Below are positions 50,492 to 59,250 of a stretch of 64,000 nt of DNA, piece after piece (within the stretch, counting starts at the first letter, position 1; each line of letters begins with the position of its first letter). The position numbers were made by a program, and so were the translations under genes. The stretch comes from Aquiluna sp. (GTDB lineage: Bacteria > Actinomycetota > Actinomycetes > Actinomycetales > Microbacteriaceae). The stretch is taken from contig JAFMHN010000001.1 of the NCBI GenBank assembly GCA_017854485.1, positions 62,001 through 126,000 on the forward strand, in the 5' to 3' direction. The notes beneath the pieces are model-generated. The model was not told where the DNA came from. It ran no database searches and worked only from the letters and a program-made list of their open reading frames with translations.

Positions 50492-52840
50492 ATGACTGAA
50501 ACATCCGAACGAATTGTTGACATTGATGTCTCTGCAGAGATGCAGGAGAGCTTCCTCGAATACTCCTACTCGGTCATATATTCAAGAGCCCTGCCCGATG
50601 CTAGAGATGGACTAAAACCAGTTCAGCGACGCATCGTCTACCAAATGGGACAAATGGGCCTAAAGCCCGACCGCGGTCACGTGAAATCAGCCAGGGTTAC
50701 CGGCGAGGTAATGGGTAAGTTGCACCCGCACGGCGATGGTGCAATCTACGATGCGCTAGTGAGAATGTCTCAAGACTTTTCACTCCGGCTGCCCCTTATC
50801 GATGGCCATGGAAACTTTGGAAGCTTAGATGACGGACCGGCTGCAGCCAGGTATACCGAGGCAAGACTTGCCCCTGCGGCAGAACTGCTGAATGAGAGTC
50901 TCGACGAAGACGTCGTTGACTTCGTAGCAAACTACGACGCACAGCTCACCGAACCTTCAGTACTTCCCGCCGCCTTTCCAAACCTTTTGGTCAATGGTGC
51001 TAGCGGCATCGCGGTTGGCATGGCCACGAACATGCCCCCTCATAACCTGCGTGAAGTAGTCGCTGCAATTCAGCTTCTGATTACCAACCCTCAGGCAGAC
51101 CTAGCCGAGATCATGCAGGTGCTCCCTGGTCCAGACCTTCCTTCCGGAGCGGTGGCTTTGGTTGGCGACAACCTCACTGAGGCATATGCCACCGGCCGCG
51201 GTAGCTTCCGAACCAGAGCAAAAATTTCAATCGAAATGGTGGGCCCGCGCCGAACTGGTTTGGTGGTAACTGAACTTCCTTACCTGGTTGGACCAGAGCG
51301 TGTAATCGACAAGATTCGCGACGCTGTCACCGCAAAGAAGCTGGAGGGCATTCACAACGTGGTTGACCTCACCGACCGCGAAAACGGCCTAAGGCTGATC
51401 ATTGAGCTGAAAACAGGATTCAGTCCGGAGTCCGTGATAGAGGCTCTCTACCGGCTCACACCGCTCGAGGAAAGCTTCGGGGTGAACAATGTGGCACTGG
51501 TTGAAGGACGACCACAACAAATGCCACTGAAGGCACTACTTGAGGTTTATCTTGAACACCGGATAACGGTTACCAAAAGACGAAGCAAGAACAGGCTTGA
51601 TAAAAGAAGGGCAAGGCTTCACCTGCTAGATGGACTTGCCATTGCAGTTGTAAACATCGACGAGGTAATCGAGGTAATCAGGCGGTCCGATACTGCTGAG
51701 ATAGCCAGAGCTAGCCTAAAGACCGTCTTTGACCTTTCTGATTTACAGGCCGACTACATTCTTGAGCTAAGGCTTAGAAGGCTGACCCGATTTAGCCTCA
51801 TCGAGCTAGAGCAAGAAGCGGACACTCTGCGCCGGGAGATCGAGGAGCTTGAAAAGATCCTTGGTAGTGAGGCGCTGGTTCGCTCACTGGTATCCAAAGA
51901 ACTTGAGACCATCGCTGAAGTCTATGGAGACCCCCGCCGCACGCAACTTATCGACGCCGAGGGAATTACTGTTTCCAGGAAGCCCGTGCAAGTTGCACAG
52001 CTGGAGGACTCCCCCACAACTGTCATCTTCGATTCCCTGGGCAACTTATACCGAACCGATCAAGTTGAGCATCAGATGGGCGGGACGGTCATCACAACTT
52101 CGCTCCGAAGCGACCTGGCCGTTGTCATTAGCGACGGTAGGGCAGTGCGGGTGCACGTGTCCGACCTACCGTCACTGACCCACGGTGTTAGCACCAGCGC
52201 CTCATGTGCAGATCAATTCCTTGGTCTTACCAGAGACACAGTTGTAGGGGTTGCCGACTGGAAGTCAGATAACGTCTTCGCCCTTGGCACCAAACAAGGC
52301 ATCGTGAAGCGCTTTGCCGGACCATTCCCGGATAAGGACGAAACCACAGTTATTGCACTCAAGGACCATGACTCAGTTGTCGGTTTCGCCGAAGCCACGG
52401 ACTCCAGTGAGCTTTGCTTTGTCACCAGCACAGCGAACCTACTTGTTTTCCCGGCCTCATCAGTCAGGCCACAGGGGTTGGCAGCCGGGGGCATGCAGGG
52501 CATATCTACTGGAGACTCGAGCGTGATCGCCTTTGGGCCAATCTCCGAAGATTCACACCTTGTAACAGTCGCAAATGATTCACAGGCTCTTGGAGCCACA
52601 GACCCAGGGTCCTTGAAAATCACGCCGCTGTACGCTTATCCAAGAAAAGGCAGGGCGACACAGGGAGTTAGGTGTCACCGTTTCCTGAAAGGTGAAGATC
52701 AGCTCTACTTCGCTGGGTGGGCGGGAACAGCTCCCACAATTATTGATTCAGAAGGTGTGCAGATAGCGACCCCCGAAGTCGATCAGCGAAGAGACTCGAG
52801 CGGGACAGACATCAGCCAGTACGTAGCAGCGGCCTATTAG
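50492..52840 (+). CDS. parC: DNA topoisomerase IV subunit A (GyrA/ParC type II topoisomerase)
   Basis: YSVIYSRALPDARDGLKPVQRRIVYQM, ARYTEARLAPAAELL. Confidence 0.93.
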   Translation: MTETSERIVDIDVSAEMQESFLEYSYSVIYSRALPDARDGLKPVQRRIVYQMGQMGLKPDRGHVKSARVTGEVMGKLHPHGDGAIYDALVRMSQDFSLRLPLIDGHGNFGSLDDGPAAARYTEARLAPAAELLNESLDEDVVDFVANYDAQLTEPSVLPAAFPNLLVNGASGIAVGMATNMPPHNLREVVAAIQLLITNPQADLAEIMQVLPGPDLPSGAVALVGDNLTEAYATGRGSFRTRAKISIEMVGPRRTGLVVTELPYLVGPERVIDKIRDAVTAKKLEGIHNVVDLTDRENGLRLIIELKTGFSPESVIEALYRLTPLEESFGVNNVALVEGRPQQMPLKALLEVYLEHRITVTKRRSKNRLDKRRARLHLLDGLAIAVVNIDEVIEVIRRSDTAEIARASLKTVFDLSDLQADYILELRLRRLTRFSLIELEQEADTLRREIEELEKILGSEALVRSLVSKELETIAEVYGDPRRTQLIDAEGITVSRKPVQVAQLEDSPTTVIFDSLGNLYRTDQVEHQMGGTVITTSLRSDLAVVISDGRAVRVHVSDLPSLTHGVSTSASCADQFLGLTRDTVVGVADWKSDNVFALGTKQGIVKRFAGPFPDKDETTVIALKDHDSVVGFAEATDSSELCFVTSTANLLVFPASSVRPQGLAAGGMQGISTGDSSVIAFGPISEDSHLVTVANDSQALGATDPGSLKITPLYAYPRKGRATQGVRCHRFLKGEDQLYFAGWAGTAPTIIDSEGVQIATPEVDQRRDSSGTDISQYVAAAY

Positions 52841-54891
52841 GCGTCGATTTTTTCACGATCAAAATCGTCAGCAGATTCGACAATAAAATCGCGGCGAGGT
52901 GCAACTTCGTTACCCATCAGTAGTTCAAATGTGCGCTCGCCGGCCTCTGCGTCTGCTGCAGTAATCCTTCGAAGCATCCGATTTGCAGGCTGCATCGTTG
53001 TCTCTGCAAGCTGGTCTGCATCCATCTCACCCAAGCCCTTATAGCGCTGAATCGGCTGCTTATAGCTCTTACCCTGCTGTTCCAGCTTTTTCAAAAGCTC
53101 CACAAGCTCTTGCTGAGAGTAGGTGTAAATCACCTGTTTGTTCTTCCCGCTCGTTTCGACGCGATGCAGCGGTGGAACAGCAGCATAGACCCGACCGGCC
53201 TCAACCAGCGGTCGCATGTATCTAAAGAACAACGTCAGCAGCAGCGTGCGAATGTGCGCGCCATCGACATCGGCATCGCTCATGAGAATGATCTTCTCGT
53301 AACGAACCTGCTCGATGTCGAAGGTGCGACCAGAACCAGCTCCAAGAACTTGAATGATGGCAGCACATTCAGCGTTGGAGAGCATGTCTGACAAGGATGC
53401 CTTCTGCACGTTCAGAATCTTTCCTCGTATAGGAAGCAACGCCTGGAAGGCCGAGTCACGGGCTAGCTTCGCAGTGCCCAGCGCACTGTCTCCCTCAACG
53501 ATAAACAGCTCACTGCCCTGTGTGGCATTGCCACGGCAGTCAACCAGCTTGCTCGGTAGCGAAGATGATTCGAGTGCGTTCTTTCTGCGCTGAGTATCCT
53601 TGAGGCTCCTTGCACTAATTCGTGTTTTGGCTTCGCTTACAACCTTGTCCAGCAGCCCGTCAACCTGCGCCTTAGTTCCTCGAACCTTGCCGGTCAGTAA
53701 CTCATCGGTCCATTTGCTAACGGCAGCTGCGACGATGGACTTTATGGCAGGAGTTCCCAATGTTTCTTTGGTCTGGCCTTCAAACTGAGGTTCCGGGAAG
53801 CTTACTGATACCACCGCAGTGAGACCCGCAAAAACATCGTCACGCTCGATCTTGACCGATGTCGCCTTGAGTCTTCTAGCGTTCTGTTCAATGGCGCCTC
53901 GGAATGACTTGAGTAGCGCTTGCTCAAAACCAGCAACGTGAGAGCCGCCCTTTGGGGTGGCAATGATGTTAACGAAGCTCTTGAGAGTCGTGTCGAAGCC
54001 ACTGCCCCACCTAAGGGCGATGTCAACCTTGCACTCGCGCTTGACTTCCCTGCTTGCCATCGCGCCACTTGCCTCATCCAGCACTGGGACGGTCTCGGAA
54101 AAGTGTGCAGTCTCTTGGATTCGCCTAGTTTCCATGACCGCACTGTCACTACTTAGGTGCTCAACATATTCCGCGATCCCGCCTTCAAACGCGAACCGCT
54201 GGGTTTGCCCTGATTCTTCATCAAGCACTTCTAGGTTCAGACCCGGCACCAAGAAAGCGGTCTGGCGCAGTCTTGACTCAAGGTCCTGCATTGAGAACTT
54301 TGCGCTGGGCTCAAAAATCTGTCGGTCCGGCCAGTAGCGAACTCGAGTTCCGGTTTTACCCTTAGCGACCTTACCCACTTTGCGAAGTTCGCTTTTGTCG
54401 ACGAACGCGGTGAAGCTGGAGTCTGGCTCTGGACCTGCAAAAACCCCCGGCTCTCCCCTGTGAAAAGACATAGCCCAGGTAACGCCATCGCGGTCAACTT
54501 CAACATCCAGGCGCTCACTGAGTGCGTTCACTACAGATGCACCAACACCGTGGAGCCCACCGGAGGCACCGTAAGAACCCCCGCCGAACTTCCCACCGGC
54601 GTGAAGCTTAGTGAAAACAACCTCAACACCGCTAAGGCCGGTCCGCGGTTCGATGTCTACCGGAACACCTCGACCATTGTCTGACACGGCGATCGACCCA
54701 TCGCTGTGGATGACAACGTTTATCGAACTACCGTGCCCGGCAAGCGCCTCGTCTACAGAGTTATCGATGATCTCCCAGAGACAGTGCATGAGACCGCGGT
54801 CATCAGTGGAGCCAATGTACATACCCGGACGCTTGCGAACGGCCTCGAGGCCCTCTAGGACCGACAGATGTCTTGCTGAGTAATCTTCCAC
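52837..54891 (-). CDS. parE: DNA topoisomerase IV subunit B (GyrB/ParE)
   Basis: YSARHLSVLEGLEAVRKRPGMYIGSTD, IVEGDSALGTAKLARD, MSDADVDGAHIRTLLLT; GTG at 54891 preferred, the track start at 55116 overlaps the opposite-strand DUF7455-like gene. Confidence 0.92.
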   Translation of the reverse strand: MEDYSARHLSVLEGLEAVRKRPGMYIGSTDDRGLMHCLWEIIDNSVDEALAGHGSSINVVIHSDGSIAVSDNGRGVPVDIEPRTGLSGVEVVFTKLHAGGKFGGGSYGASGGLHGVGASVVNALSERLDVEVDRDGVTWAMSFHRGEPGVFAGPEPDSSFTAFVDKSELRKVGKVAKGKTGTRVRYWPDRQIFEPSAKFSMQDLESRLRQTAFLVPGLNLEVLDEESGQTQRFAFEGGIAEYVEHLSSDSAVMETRRIQETAHFSETVPVLDEASGAMASREVKRECKVDIALRWGSGFDTTLKSFVNIIATPKGGSHVAGFEQALLKSFRGAIEQNARRLKATSVKIERDDVFAGLTAVVSVSFPEPQFEGQTKETLGTPAIKSIVAAAVSKWTDELLTGKVRGTKAQVDGLLDKVVSEAKTRISARSLKDTQRRKNALESSSLPSKLVDCRGNATQGSELFIVEGDSALGTAKLARDSAFQALLPIRGKILNVQKASLSDMLSNAECAAIIQVLGAGSGRTFDIEQVRYEKIILMSDADVDGAHIRTLLLTLFFRYMRPLVEAGRVYAAVPPLHRVETSGKNKQVIYTYSQQELVELLKKLEQQGKSYKQPIQRYKGLGEMDADQLAETTMQPANRMLRRITAADAEAGERTFELLMGNEVAPRRDFIVESADDFDREKIDA

Positions 54892-54998
54892 TCCGAAACC
54901 ATAACTGGGAATCGCGCATCTTGAGTCATGCCACTTCGCCTTTAGCGAAACATGCTGTACTGGCCGAATAAAAACAGAGCGGCATGGTTGAATAGTGC

Positions 54999-55199
54999 GT
55001 GATGGAAAATACAACCGAAGTAACAAAGCTACTGGTAAGCGATCGCTGCGACGTATGTGGTGCTCAGGCATACATGAGAGTTGAGCTAGCTGGTGGCGAA
55101 CTTCTATTCTGCGCACATCACGGTAACGCCAACAAGGAAAAACTTGAGCCGCTTACCATTCAGTGGCACGACCAAAGCGCCGACCTCAATCAGAACTAA
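54999..55199 (+). CDS. Small DUF7455-like zinc-binding protein
   Basis: 66 aa; SDRCDVCGAQAYMRVELAGGELLFCAHHGN (CxxC...CxxH). Confidence 0.85.
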   Translation: MMENTTEVTKLLVSDRCDVCGAQAYMRVELAGGELLFCAHHGNANKEKLEPLTIQWHDQSADLNQN

Positions 55200-55755
55200 T
55201 CTCTGACCGAATTTTTGCAACAAACTCCAACATATCTTCGGGCCAGTTTGCTCTTTCTGCTCCCAGGCGCAGCAGCAGCAAATCAAGCAGTTCTGGGTTC
55301 TTGGCAAGTATCGGACCATAGAGCGTCGTTGCGATGAATCCCCCAAACAGCTGAACATCACCGCTCGCGAGCTCACTATTGCGATAGCCCATAACAGTTA
55401 GTTCCGCTGTCGGCGTGACTGACCTGAACTCACTGACGCGTGTGGTTCTCGCGTGAGTGCCAAGCTCTGCAATCTTCCCGATGAAAAACTCATAACTAGA
55501 GCCGACCAAGAGCGTCGGCAGCCCCTTGGCGATCCTGGAGCTAAGGACAGAAATTAGCCGCGTCAATTCCTGCTCATGATGACTAATAGCGGCCCGGCTG
55601 GCATCGCCGACCAATACAAAATCAGCAACTGCTGCGTCATCTGTCGCACTCACTTGAAGCCCTTGGGCTTCCAGAAAGAATCGAAGAACCTCAAGGTTTC
55701 CCTGATCTCCGTTGTTGTTGAAGTGCTCAGGCATGAAGGAGAAGTACGTTCTCAC
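55186..55755 (-). CDS. GatD-like class I glutamine amidotransferase homolog lacking catalytic residues
   Basis: HFNNNGDQGNLEVLRFFLEAQGL matches the GatD NIYGDRGN...LxxR region and LYGPILAKNPELLDLLL matches HGPLLxKNPxLADxLL; nucleophile position reads LLVGSSYEFF; no Cys in the protein. Confidence 0.8.
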   Translation of the reverse strand: MRTYFSFMPEHFNNNGDQGNLEVLRFFLEAQGLQVSATDDAAVADFVLVGDASRAAISHHEQELTRLISVLSSRIAKGLPTLLVGSSYEFFIGKIAELGTHARTTRVSEFRSVTPTAELTVMGYRNSELASGDVQLFGGFIATTLYGPILAKNPELLDLLLLRLGAERANWPEDMLEFVAKIRSEISSD

Positions 55756-56957
55756 TTGGCTAACCCCCAGTGTCTTCTGACGCGTCTCATTGCGTCGGCA
55801 CTAAACAGCACTGTTGGACGCGCACCGCTGAGGCGCAGGAAGGCATCCCCAGCTTCGGTGGCTTCGGTGATTACCTGACCGACCTCAACCCCCTGAAACC
55901 TAAGCCGCAATGCCAAATCTGAGGCATTGAAGCCGCCAACGACCTCGACCCGATTCAACTTTGAGAAATCCACTGTCCACAACCAACTTGGATCATGAAT
56001 ATCCCTACCCGCCATCAGCATCAACGGCAGTTCATCCCCGACTAGTTCATCCAAGTTCTTCTGAAAACTAGTTGGGTTCTGCACGAGCCGCAGGTCAATA
56101 TGACGATCGGCTACTACGACCCTTTCATTTCTTGCGAACACCGGTTTCAGTTCCAGCAGCCTTGACTGAACAACATCGGGGTCCACTTCAATTAGGCACT
56201 CAAGGGCAGCAACGGCCGCAGCTAGGTTCATTGCCTGATGGCTCGGTAGCGCCACTGTTTGGTAGACAGAGTCTTTGCCCAGACCATGAACGGTGACGCT
56301 GGAAGCACCTGCAGTGACAAAATGTGAAAGTGCTGGGTGAGCGCCAAAATTTAGAGCGTAGCTAAGTTCACCTGGTGGGAGCTGATTCCTGTCGGCTCCA
56401 AAGGCCAGCGGGGTTTTGCCGAAATCTAACTGGCAGAGGTTTTTGTCCTCGGCATTTATAAGAACGGACCCTGCCTCTACACCAATGATCTTAAGCATCT
56501 CAATGACCACTTCTGGATCAACGAATCGGTCAAGTTGATCAGAGAGCACGTTGGTGAGCACGGCAAGCTTTATCGGAAGCTCTTTGGCCAAAACGGCCCC
56601 ATGCCCCTCATCCCACTCCAGCACGGCAATATCAAAATCGATTCGACCGCGGAGATCTGACTGGGCCAAAATTGCAGCAACTAGTCCTTGACGGATGTTT
56701 GCGGTGCTGGTGTTAGTAAAAACCCTTAATCCATGCGATTGAAGCAGCGAAACCAAATAGCTGGTGGTGGATGATTTCCCCGCCGAACCAGAAACTACTA
56801 CCAACCCGCCTGGAATGCTTCTAATCGCGTTGGCGAGCAGCTTAGGTTGGATTTTGTTGGCGATTACTCCTGGAAGTGCGGAACCTCCGCCGGGTCGAAC
56901 TAATCGGATTAGCAACCTGGCGAGCTTCCCGAACATCACAGCCAGGAAGGTACGCAT
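55752..56957 (-). CDS. MurT-like Mur ligase family protein (DUF1727-type C-terminus) without Cys4 zinc ribbon
   Basis: VVVSGSAGKSSTTSYL P-loop, VLEWDEGHG, LTNVLSDQLDRF, LRLVQNPTSFQKNLDEL, DPSWLWTVDFSKL; stop overlaps the start of the GatD-like gene. Confidence 0.85.
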   Translation of the reverse strand: MRTFLAVMFGKLARLLIRLVRPGGGSALPGVIANKIQPKLLANAIRSIPGGLVVVSGSAGKSSTTSYLVSLLQSHGLRVFTNTSTANIRQGLVAAILAQSDLRGRIDFDIAVLEWDEGHGAVLAKELPIKLAVLTNVLSDQLDRFVDPEVVIEMLKIIGVEAGSVLINAEDKNLCQLDFGKTPLAFGADRNQLPPGELSYALNFGAHPALSHFVTAGASSVTVHGLGKDSVYQTVALPSHQAMNLAAAVAALECLIEVDPDVVQSRLLELKPVFARNERVVVADRHIDLRLVQNPTSFQKNLDELVGDELPLMLMAGRDIHDPSWLWTVDFSKLNRVEVVGGFNASDLALRLRFQGVEVGQVITEATEAGDAFLRLSGARPTVLFSADAMRRVRRHWGLAK

Positions 56958-58022
56958 TTATCCGTCCAGGTAATCTCTGAGTAGTTGTGACCTTGATGGG
57001 TGACGAAGCTTTGACATGGTCTTAGATTCGATCTGACGGATACGTTCACGAGTCACACCGAACTTCTCACCAATTTGATCCAGAGTCATCTGGACACCGT
57101 CTCCCAAACCGAAGCGGGACCTAATTACCCCAGCCTCTCTTGGGTGAAGGCTATCGAGAACTCTCTCAAGCTCCTGCTGGAGCATGGTGAAGCCGACTGC
57201 ATCCGCTGGCACTACCGCCTCGGTGTCCTCAATCAGGTCACCGAACTCGCTGTCGCCATCTTCTCCAAGCGGAGTGGAAAGGGAAATTGGCTCGCGACCA
57301 TACTTCTGAACCTCAACCACCTTCTCAGGTGTCATGTCCAATTCTGCAGCCAACTCCTCTGGGGTTGGCTCGCGGCCAAGGTCCTGAAGCAGCTGGCGCT
57401 GAACACGGGCCAACTTGTTAATGACCTCAACCATGTGGACTGGAATACGAATAGTTCTTGCCTGGTCTGCCATGGCTCGCGTAATCGCCTGACGAATCCA
57501 CCAGGTTGCGTATGTCGAAAACTTGAAGCCCTTCGTGTAGTCAAACTTCTCTACGGCACGGATTAGCCCGAGGTTACCCTCTTGAATCAGATCCAAAAAC
57601 TGCATTCCGCGACCGGTGTAACGCTTGGCGAGTGAAACAACCAGACGAAGGTTAGCCTCGAGCAGGTGTGACTTTGAGCGCTTGCCGTCCTTTACAACCC
57701 AGTTCAGGTCACGTCGGTCAGCCGGAGCAAGGTTTTTATCGGTGGCAAGCTTCTCTTCTGCAAACAGACCAGCCTCAATGCGCTTTGCTAGCTCTACCTC
57801 AAGCTCAGCATTAAGCAGCGCCACCTTACCGATTTGCTTCAGGTAGTCCTTGACCGGGTCAGCCGTCGCACCAGTAATGGTTAGGTTCTGGACCGGGATG
57901 TCGTCTTCGTCATCCTTGATTACAAGTGCGTCGGTTGGAAGCTCAATAACACCGGTTGTTGGTTCAGCGTCATCAGCTGTTAGGTCCACCGCAGCGGCAG
58001 CCTCAGAAACAATGTCTTCCAC
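56958..58022 (-). CDS. sigA: Principal RNA polymerase sigma factor (region-conserved part; true N-terminus probably extends to about 58223)
   Basis: [87 protein letters not shown]. Confidence 0.96.
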
Positions 58023-58344: not shown

Positions 58345-59250
58345 TTATTCCTGATCATCGGTGTTGTTTCGCATCGTTGTCAGGTACTTCTCAAGCTCAT
58401 CGGCCAATTCGTCCACGGTGGGCGGCTCTCCGGAAGGCTTACCAATCGGAGCCCTAGACGGCCCCTGAGACCCTGATGAGTACCCCTGTTCAAGAGTCTG
58501 AACCAGCTTCGCTAACTCCGCGTTGTCAGCGATCTGCGCTTCCACCTTCGCGGCAAATTCGTTAGCAGCATCGCGAAGGTCATCAGATGGGAAGACCAAG
58601 CCGGTCGCGGCACTGATTAGCTCTAGTCCACTGAGGGCCGCGTTTGGAACCTCGTTCTCGGCCAAATAGTGCGGCACAAGAAGCACAAACCCGGCCGTCG
58701 CAACAAAACTGGCACTGAGGCGATATTCCAAAAGGTGTGTCACGTTTCCAGGCACTTGGGTTTGAGGTTTCCACTCTGAGAACCTCTGAATCATGTCAGC
58801 GCGATTACCAGAGACGGTAACGCCAGCGGGTCTTGTGTGAGGAATCGGGAACGGGATCGAGTGCACCCAGGTGAAGTTCTTGACCTGATATTTTCTGATT
58901 AGCTCAAGAATTGAGCTTGCAAATCGCTCCCACCTAAGATCCGGCTCGTAGCCCTCCAGCAGCAAGAATGGCTGCTGAGCCTCATCGAAGACCAGATGGA
59001 CAGCCAGTGACGGAGGTTCGTAGGACTCGATGTGGTCCTTCTCAAAATAGAGTGAAGGTCTCCTTGATCGGTAGTCAAGGAATTCGTCGTTGTCAAAACG
59101 GACTATCTCCTCTGAGTCCAGCTGACCAAAAAGGTGTGTTGATAGTTGAGACACAGTCTGGCCCGCGTCACTAAAGCCGTTTATTAGCGCCACCATTGGA
59201 AGCCCGCTAGGGACTTCTGGCTGCCCAATAATCTTGTATGACGCTTCCAC
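58345..59250 (-). CDS. PAC2 family protein (proteasome assembly chaperone-like)
   Basis: LPMVALINGFSDAGQTVSQLSTHLF, VSGNRADMIQRFSEWKPQTQVPGNVTHLLEYRL. Confidence 0.87.
   Translation of the reverse strand: MEASYKIIGQPEVPSGLPMVALINGFSDAGQTVSQLSTHLFGQLDSEEIVRFDNDEFLDYRSRRPSLYFEKDHIESYEPPSLAVHLVFDEAQQPFLLLEGYEPDLRWERFASSILELIRKYQVKNFTWVHSIPFPIPHTRPAGVTVSGNRADMIQRFSEWKPQTQVPGNVTHLLEYRLSASFVATAGFVLLVPHYLAENEVPNAALSGLELISAATGLVFPSDDLRDAANEFAAKVEAQIADNAELAKLVQTLEQGYSSGSQGPSRAPIGKPSGEPPTVDELADELEKYLTTMRNNTDDQE

Follow-up and report, generated by a model that had tools for sequence, protein, structure and literature searches.

What does a MurT/GatD pair do when its ammonia-making half has been lost? 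The question is raised by two genes that adjoin the principal sigma-factor gene in a very small actinobacterium from fresh water, and that were compared here with their counterparts in about 200 related genomes. Group B peptidoglycan, which for decades has helped to define the Microbacteriaceae, is cross-linked via the alpha-carboxyl of D-Glu, and a search of open-access papers found no gene for the bridge bond at this carboxyl. In the genome paper of one species of the family, direct cross-links were assumed, without any account of cross-bridge enzymology (PMC6106888). A sequence-only reading of the window (the whole stretch of DNA that was analysed, 64,000 nucleotides) had proposed that the pair activates D-Glu and accepts an amino acid or a diamine instead of ammonia, an interpretation that is, as a whole, partly supported by the results below.

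Gene context and domain content

The two genes are intact open reading frames that overlap by 4 nt and follow sigA directly, as the sequence-only reading had described them. They lie within a conserved gene order (PAC2, sigA, a variable cassette, DUF7455, parE, parC), given here with positions in the window:

58345-59250, minus strand: gene upstream of sigA, presumably PAC2-type; synteny conserved, outside the proposed function
56958-58022, minus strand: sigA, directly upstream of the murT-like gene (0 nt); constant left border across the family
55752-56957, minus strand: MurT-type Mur ligase, 401 aa, intact ORF
55186-55755, minus strand: GatD-fold protein, 189 aa, intact ORF
55002-55199, plus strand: small gene, which we take to be DUF7455-like, convergent with the gatD-like gene; constant right border together with parE
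52837-55116, minus strand: parE/gyrB-type ORF, constant right border; true start probably near 54.9 kb

The MurT-like protein matched the Pfam profiles MurT_C (36.8 bits, cut-off 25) and Mur_ligase_M (33.4 bits, cut-off 24), both above their cut-offs, which bears out its earlier assignment. The GatD-like protein had no Pfam match and matched S. aureus GatD with an E-value of 3e-6. Against the NCBIfam profiles, for which the window pair alone was scored, the MurT-like protein reached 102 bits (below the equivalog cut-off of 800) and the GatD-like protein 38.6 bits (E 1e-9, below the cut-off of 450). In AlphaFold models (pLDDT 88.5 for the MurT-like and 94.4 for the GatD-like protein), the first Foldseek matches were a MurT crystal structure and a solved GatD structure, respectively. 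By its two domains, its fold and its place in the tree described below, the larger protein is a member of the MurT branch of the Mur ligase superfamily; it has the fold of MurC/D/E/F and presumably their acyl-phosphate chemistry, in which an amino acid is the nucleophile, but its sequence matches them more weakly than it matches MurT.

The window genome (1.22 Mb, 96% complete) holds no second MurT and no canonical MurT/GatD pair elsewhere, in agreement with the sequence-only reading. Apart from the pair, it has a single cluster of four Mur ligase genes, whose products we take to be MurC/D/E/F, and also encodes a FolC-like protein. One alanine racemase is present in this genome; neither a racemase nor EctB (diaminobutyrate transaminase) is linked to the window cassette, and a genome-wide search for EctB returned sub-threshold aminotransferases only, none of them full-scoring.

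Residues retained and lost

Residues were numbered according to S. aureus MurT/GatD (PMC6113224), and the alignment set combined three classes: canonical pairs (96), the class to which the window pair belongs, called form B (68 pairs), and another stripped class, called form C (10 pairs). In the GatD-like protein of the window, G85 occupies the position of the nucleophile C94 and Y146 that of the catalytic H189; VGSSYE stands for ICGGYQ and LYGP for LHGP, the GNNG segment is missing, and the whole protein is devoid of Cys. The GDQGN motif is retained. So is the GP..AKNP segment, located beside the His position and in contact with MurT in S. aureus. Judging from these residues, the protein is predicted to be unable to make ammonia by the known route. 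The MurT-like protein retains the P-loop K61, the Mg-binding E114, N244, R276 and D322 (S. aureus K59, E108, N267, R298 and D349), with a conservative S62 at the T60 position, and lacks all four zinc-ribbon Cys. The losses listed in the sequence-only reading are thus all present.

The same pattern extends to the alignment set, where Cys is found at GatD position 94 in 96/96 canonical, 0/68 form B and 0/10 form C pairs, the form B residue being G (50 of 68), A (13) or S (3). The His at position 189 persists in 43 of the 68 form B proteins, the window having Tyr. MurT K59 and E108 are invariant in all three classes, and none of the 68 form B pairs has lost K59, E108, R298 or D349. The claimed loss of the ammonia source with retention of the ligase core is supported. 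D349 itself is Asp in 96/96 canonical and 0/10 form C pairs.

Two of the earlier arguments fared less well. In S. aureus, D349 is a triad residue, and K59, T60, E108 and N267 belong to the ATP site (PMC6113224). The Asp-to-Thr change reported in the SWLWD motif is real, but it falls at D355; the triad residue itself is retained as D322, and the claim that MurT has lost its catalytic Asp was therefore rejected. Since this glutaminase-triad residue is invariant in form B, it must have another role there. Loss of the zinc ribbon, taken earlier as a sign of changed function, was likewise rejected as a marker: of the 96 canonical pairs, roughly one in two has no ribbon Cys, and ribbon-less MurTs with an intact GatD occur, for example, in Arthrobacter, Bifidobacterium and Actinomyces loci. 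Ribbon loss consequently says nothing about the glutaminase and is not a defining character in actinobacteria.

Compared with the MurT/GatD synthases of solved structure (S. aureus 6GS2/6H5E, S. pneumoniae 6FQB, S. pyogenes 9SQ9), the stripped pair shares both subunit folds, gene order, overlap, the ATP-site residues, the D349 equivalent and the GP segment. It differs from them in lacking the glutaminase nucleophile or His, the GNNG segment and the zinc ribbon, in the form B switches T56S, R133V/I, N267D (62/68; the window keeps N) and G319S (67/68), and in having a fixed place behind sigA with other linked genes.

Distribution, phylogeny and selection

In a sample of 200 Microbacteriaceae genomes (MurT match threshold E <= 1e-15), any MurT was found in 167 and none in 33. 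Stripped pairs (form B or C) are carried by about 143 of the 167, four of which have a canonical copy too; 18 others carry nothing but a canonical pair, the MurT of three further genomes is of an odd kind (form D), and in another three, all of genus g49, the match is doubtful. Coexistence of a canonical pair with a stripped one linked to sigA, seen in four genomes (G054, G066, G124 and G164), suggests separate functions for the two. Inspection of approximately 40 pairs from the order's other families found the GatD Cys intact in every one, as it is in the remaining named actinobacteria whose GatD could be read; among the sampled actinobacteria, the stripped clade is limited to Microbacteriaceae, as the proposed link to group B walls had implied. 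The other families of the order mostly have group A walls. Other glutaminase-dead pairs occur at five clostridial or other Firmicutes loci. In a scan of genome contigs, one locus came from a named Microbacteriaceae genus, Amnibacterium.

In a MurT tree of 177 rows obtained by a quick search, form B makes up one side of a branch (60 rows, SH-aLRT 99) and form C likewise lies on one side of a branch. Form B is found immediately downstream of sigA in most loci. Pairwise dN/dS values (Nei-Gojobori) were 0.30 for form B murT and 0.41 for form B gatD, versus 0.33 and 0.40 for the intact pairs of the order; comparison of the window with its congeners was uninformative, synonymous sites being saturated (pS about 0.8). 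The stripped pair is under purifying selection, and its decay, which the sequence-only reading had already doubted from the open frames, was rejected on dN/dS and residue conservation. It is accordingly very improbable that the pair is a non-catalytic remnant or regulator, kept for binding a precursor or slowly decaying. The shortening of the GatD-like protein to 189 aa, its divergence and the precise absences of the pair among relatives would fit such a fate, but the ligase residues are invariant in 68/68 pairs, the frames are open, dN/dS is as in intact pairs, and the pair is retained in streamlined genomes and also at locus L044, which presumably belongs to Tropheryma whipplei.

The form C pairs (loci L024-L031, L040 and L088) have a MurT that keeps the zinc ribbon and a GatD with His at the nucleophile position and no catalytic His. 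They lie behind sigA and alternate with form B or with a CofE-like gene within genera. A further class of glutaminase-dead MurT/GatD was seen in uncultured Firmicutes (L159, L160, L161 and L176), three of these loci being, by eye, near a CarD-like gene.

Gene exchange in the sigA-parE interval

The interval between sigA and parE behaves as an exchangeable cassette, which holds the stripped murT-gatD pair, or a CofE-like ligase usually accompanied by an ATP-grasp gene, or neither. At first sight the relatives without MurT speak against the proposed function, but most of the sigA neighbourhoods fetched from them show a CofE-like cassette instead. murT/gatD was absent behind sigA from all 20 MurT-less genomes whose sigA neighbourhood was fetched; most of these hold a CofE-like gene, four intervals are empty (L130, L134, L125 and L137) and one is cut by a contig end. 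Among the four genomes with empty intervals, G019, G121 and G146 also have no CofE-like gene, and G156 has it elsewhere. The CofE-like gene (F420-0:gamma-glutamyl ligase family, PF01996) is usually accompanied by an ATP-grasp gene (ATPgrasp_ST, PF14397) and often by a pair of racemase genes, one full-length and one in which Pfam recognises the C-terminal domain only; the tandem possibly encodes a heteromeric racemase for a bridge residue. Genes other than the stripped pair, in or next to such cassettes, were located as follows:

L123, L124, L126-L129, L131-L133, L135, L136, L138-L141: CofE-like gene replacing murT-gatD behind sigA
L090, 7716-8417 and 8339-9451: tandem alanine-racemase genes (example)
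L131, 3727-4329 and 4290-5396: tandem alanine-racemase genes (example)
L143, 6937-8199, minus strand: EctB in a form B cassette
L128, 2402-3670, minus strand: EctB in a CofE-like cassette
L165, 2407-3657, plus strand: EctB immediately upstream of a form C-like stripped pair in a clostridial locus

A CofE-like gene was found in 30 of the 200 family genomes, namely 27/33 without MurT versus 3/167 with MurT (Fisher p 2e-24, a value that ignores relatedness), and usually at the same place; six of the 200 have neither any MurT nor a CofE-like gene. On a parE tree of 67 loci, at least 12 changes between murT and the CofE-like gene were counted, which means that different ligases stand at the same place in close relatives. 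The ATP-grasp gene moves with the CofE-like gene or with form C in about 8/8 independent pairs on supported branches (p 0.008); it is absent from 48/49 form B loci and present in 10/12 CofE-like loci and in form C loci. Racemase genes are linked to 18/49 form B, 7/12 CofE-like, 0/2 form C and 0/4 empty loci. The CofE-like protein resembles the stripped MurT in its place behind sigA, its linked racemase pair and its proposed role, but it belongs to a different Pfam family, is not a Mur ligase and usually has an ATP-grasp gene with it. In the canonical-only genomes that were fetched, none of these cassette genes lies in the sigA-parE interval, where L238 and L247 hold another gene.

The exchange with a CofE-like gene at the same locus, together with the linked racemase pair and the linked EctB, strengthens the interpretation of the sequence-only reading. 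The interval might instead simply collect wall genes, in which case the two ligases would exclude each other because one replaces the other in some accessory task that has nothing to do with the cross-link. We regard such a purely contextual association as highly unlikely: wall types are known for two carriers only and six genomes do without both ligases, which leaves some room for it, but the ligase changed at least 12 times with the ATP-grasp gene moving alongside, and EctB and racemases match known bridge chemistry.

Wall types of named carriers

Form B is carried by G015 (927,303 bp; locus L044), presumably Tropheryma whipplei, by G010, which is Rhodoluna lacicola (1,430,433 bp, PMC4156110), and by G034, which is Clavibacter nebraskensis NCPPB 2581 (3,063,596 bp, PMC5358740). 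The wall of R. lacicola was measured as B2-beta with diaminobutyrate (PMC4156110), and B2-gamma diaminobutyrate walls are given for the genus Clavibacter (PMC5882085). With these genomes identified by their exact length, two relatives with B-type walls appear to carry the pair, the wall type resting on measurement in the first case and on the genus in the second. In Aurantimicrobium minutum (G059; 1,622,386 bp, PMC4929513), the pair is canonical (L020) and nothing lies in the sigA-parE interval (L239). R. lacicola, a free-living freshwater strain, is described as genetically tractable, with published genome-editing tools (PMC11577799).

Proposed reaction

The pair is probably a re-purposed lipid II isoglutaminyl synthase, that is, an ATP-dependent ligase joining a diamino acid, perhaps in D form, to the alpha-carboxyl of D-Glu, with the GatD-like protein as a structural or specificity subunit. 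The MurT-like protein would bind ATP and activate a carboxylate of the wall precursor, most likely the D-Glu alpha-carboxyl, as an acyl phosphate, at the stage of lipid II or of a UDP precursor. The amino group of an amino acid would then act as nucleophile in place of GatD-derived ammonia. This amino acid would most likely be the (D-)diamino acid of a group B one-residue bridge, diaminobutyrate in the nearest characterised relative. The GatD-like pseudo-glutaminase may have been kept at the interface with the MurT C-domain, where it could help MurT D322 and the switched residues to shape the site of the nucleophile. Several observations weigh against a bridge ligase: the six genomes without both ligases and the doubtful MurT match of genus g49, the coexistence of canonical and stripped pairs in four genomes, the window cassette without racemase or EctB, the continued invariance of MurT D349 in the stripped clade, and the glutaminase-dead relatives in Clostridia. 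Should the 18 canonical-only family genomes be B-type, such walls can be built without the cassette.

An amidase that uses free ammonium on D-Glu, with the GatD-like protein as a mere scaffold, appears unlikely. In many glutamine amidotransferases the synthase subunit is able to work with free ammonia, and the ATP site, D349 (68/68) and the GatD interface segment are all kept, as such an enzyme would have them; yet amidation leaves the exchange with a CofE-like amino-acid ligase and the linkage to racemases and EctB unexplained, a canonical amidating pair already coexists with the stripped one in G054, G066, G124 and G164, and in B-type walls the D-Glu alpha-carboxyl carries the bridge. It is somewhat less unlikely, though still doubtful, that the pair is an amino-acid ligase acting on another carboxyl or at another step, for example on a distal bridge residue, at position 3 or on a wall polymer. 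The Mur-ligase fold, the racemase and EctB linkage, the CofE-like exchange and the ATP-grasp neighbours fit any amino-acid ligase of the wall, and a different target eases the coexistence with canonical pairs in the four genomes. Against this, all characterised MurTs, to our knowledge, use the D-Glu alpha-carboxyl, the very carboxyl by which group B walls stand apart.

With the stripped pair taken as a D-Glu alpha-carboxyl ligase, the interval as a whole may, more tentatively, set the group B wall type. The absence of ATP-grasp from form B and its presence with the CofE-like gene or form C suggest a prediction in which stripped MurT-GatD makes one-residue bridges and CofE-like or form C with ATP-grasp makes two-residue bridges (such as Gly then a diamino acid). 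The racemase pair and EctB would supply the residue, and two ligase families would have been swapped repeatedly for one wall reaction. The Fem-type tRNA-dependent and ATP-grasp enzymes that build the interpeptide bridges of group A walls likewise add bridge residues, and belong to different families with a different attachment residue. If the proposal is true, candidate genes for the group B cross-bridge lie at one fixed locus, wall chemistry becomes predictable from sequence, and a glutamine amidotransferase became an amino-acid ligase through losing its ammonia supply. It would also explain the variation of diamino acids between close Microbacterium species (PMC10757982).

CofE-like domains were also seen in other settings. 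In G053 (locus L063) and G123, a CofE-like gene lies beside the odd form D MurT and a dead GatD at another locus, and the sigA-parE interval of G053 holds the racemase pair only (L243). Outside the family, the CofE-like domain sits in large proteins; at L235 and L237, from another family of the order, it is C-terminal and fused behind an Asn_synthase domain; a thyX-type gene lies downstream, and at least one of the two loci also has a dapA-like gene nearby. This fusion may be another enzyme acting on a wall carboxyl.
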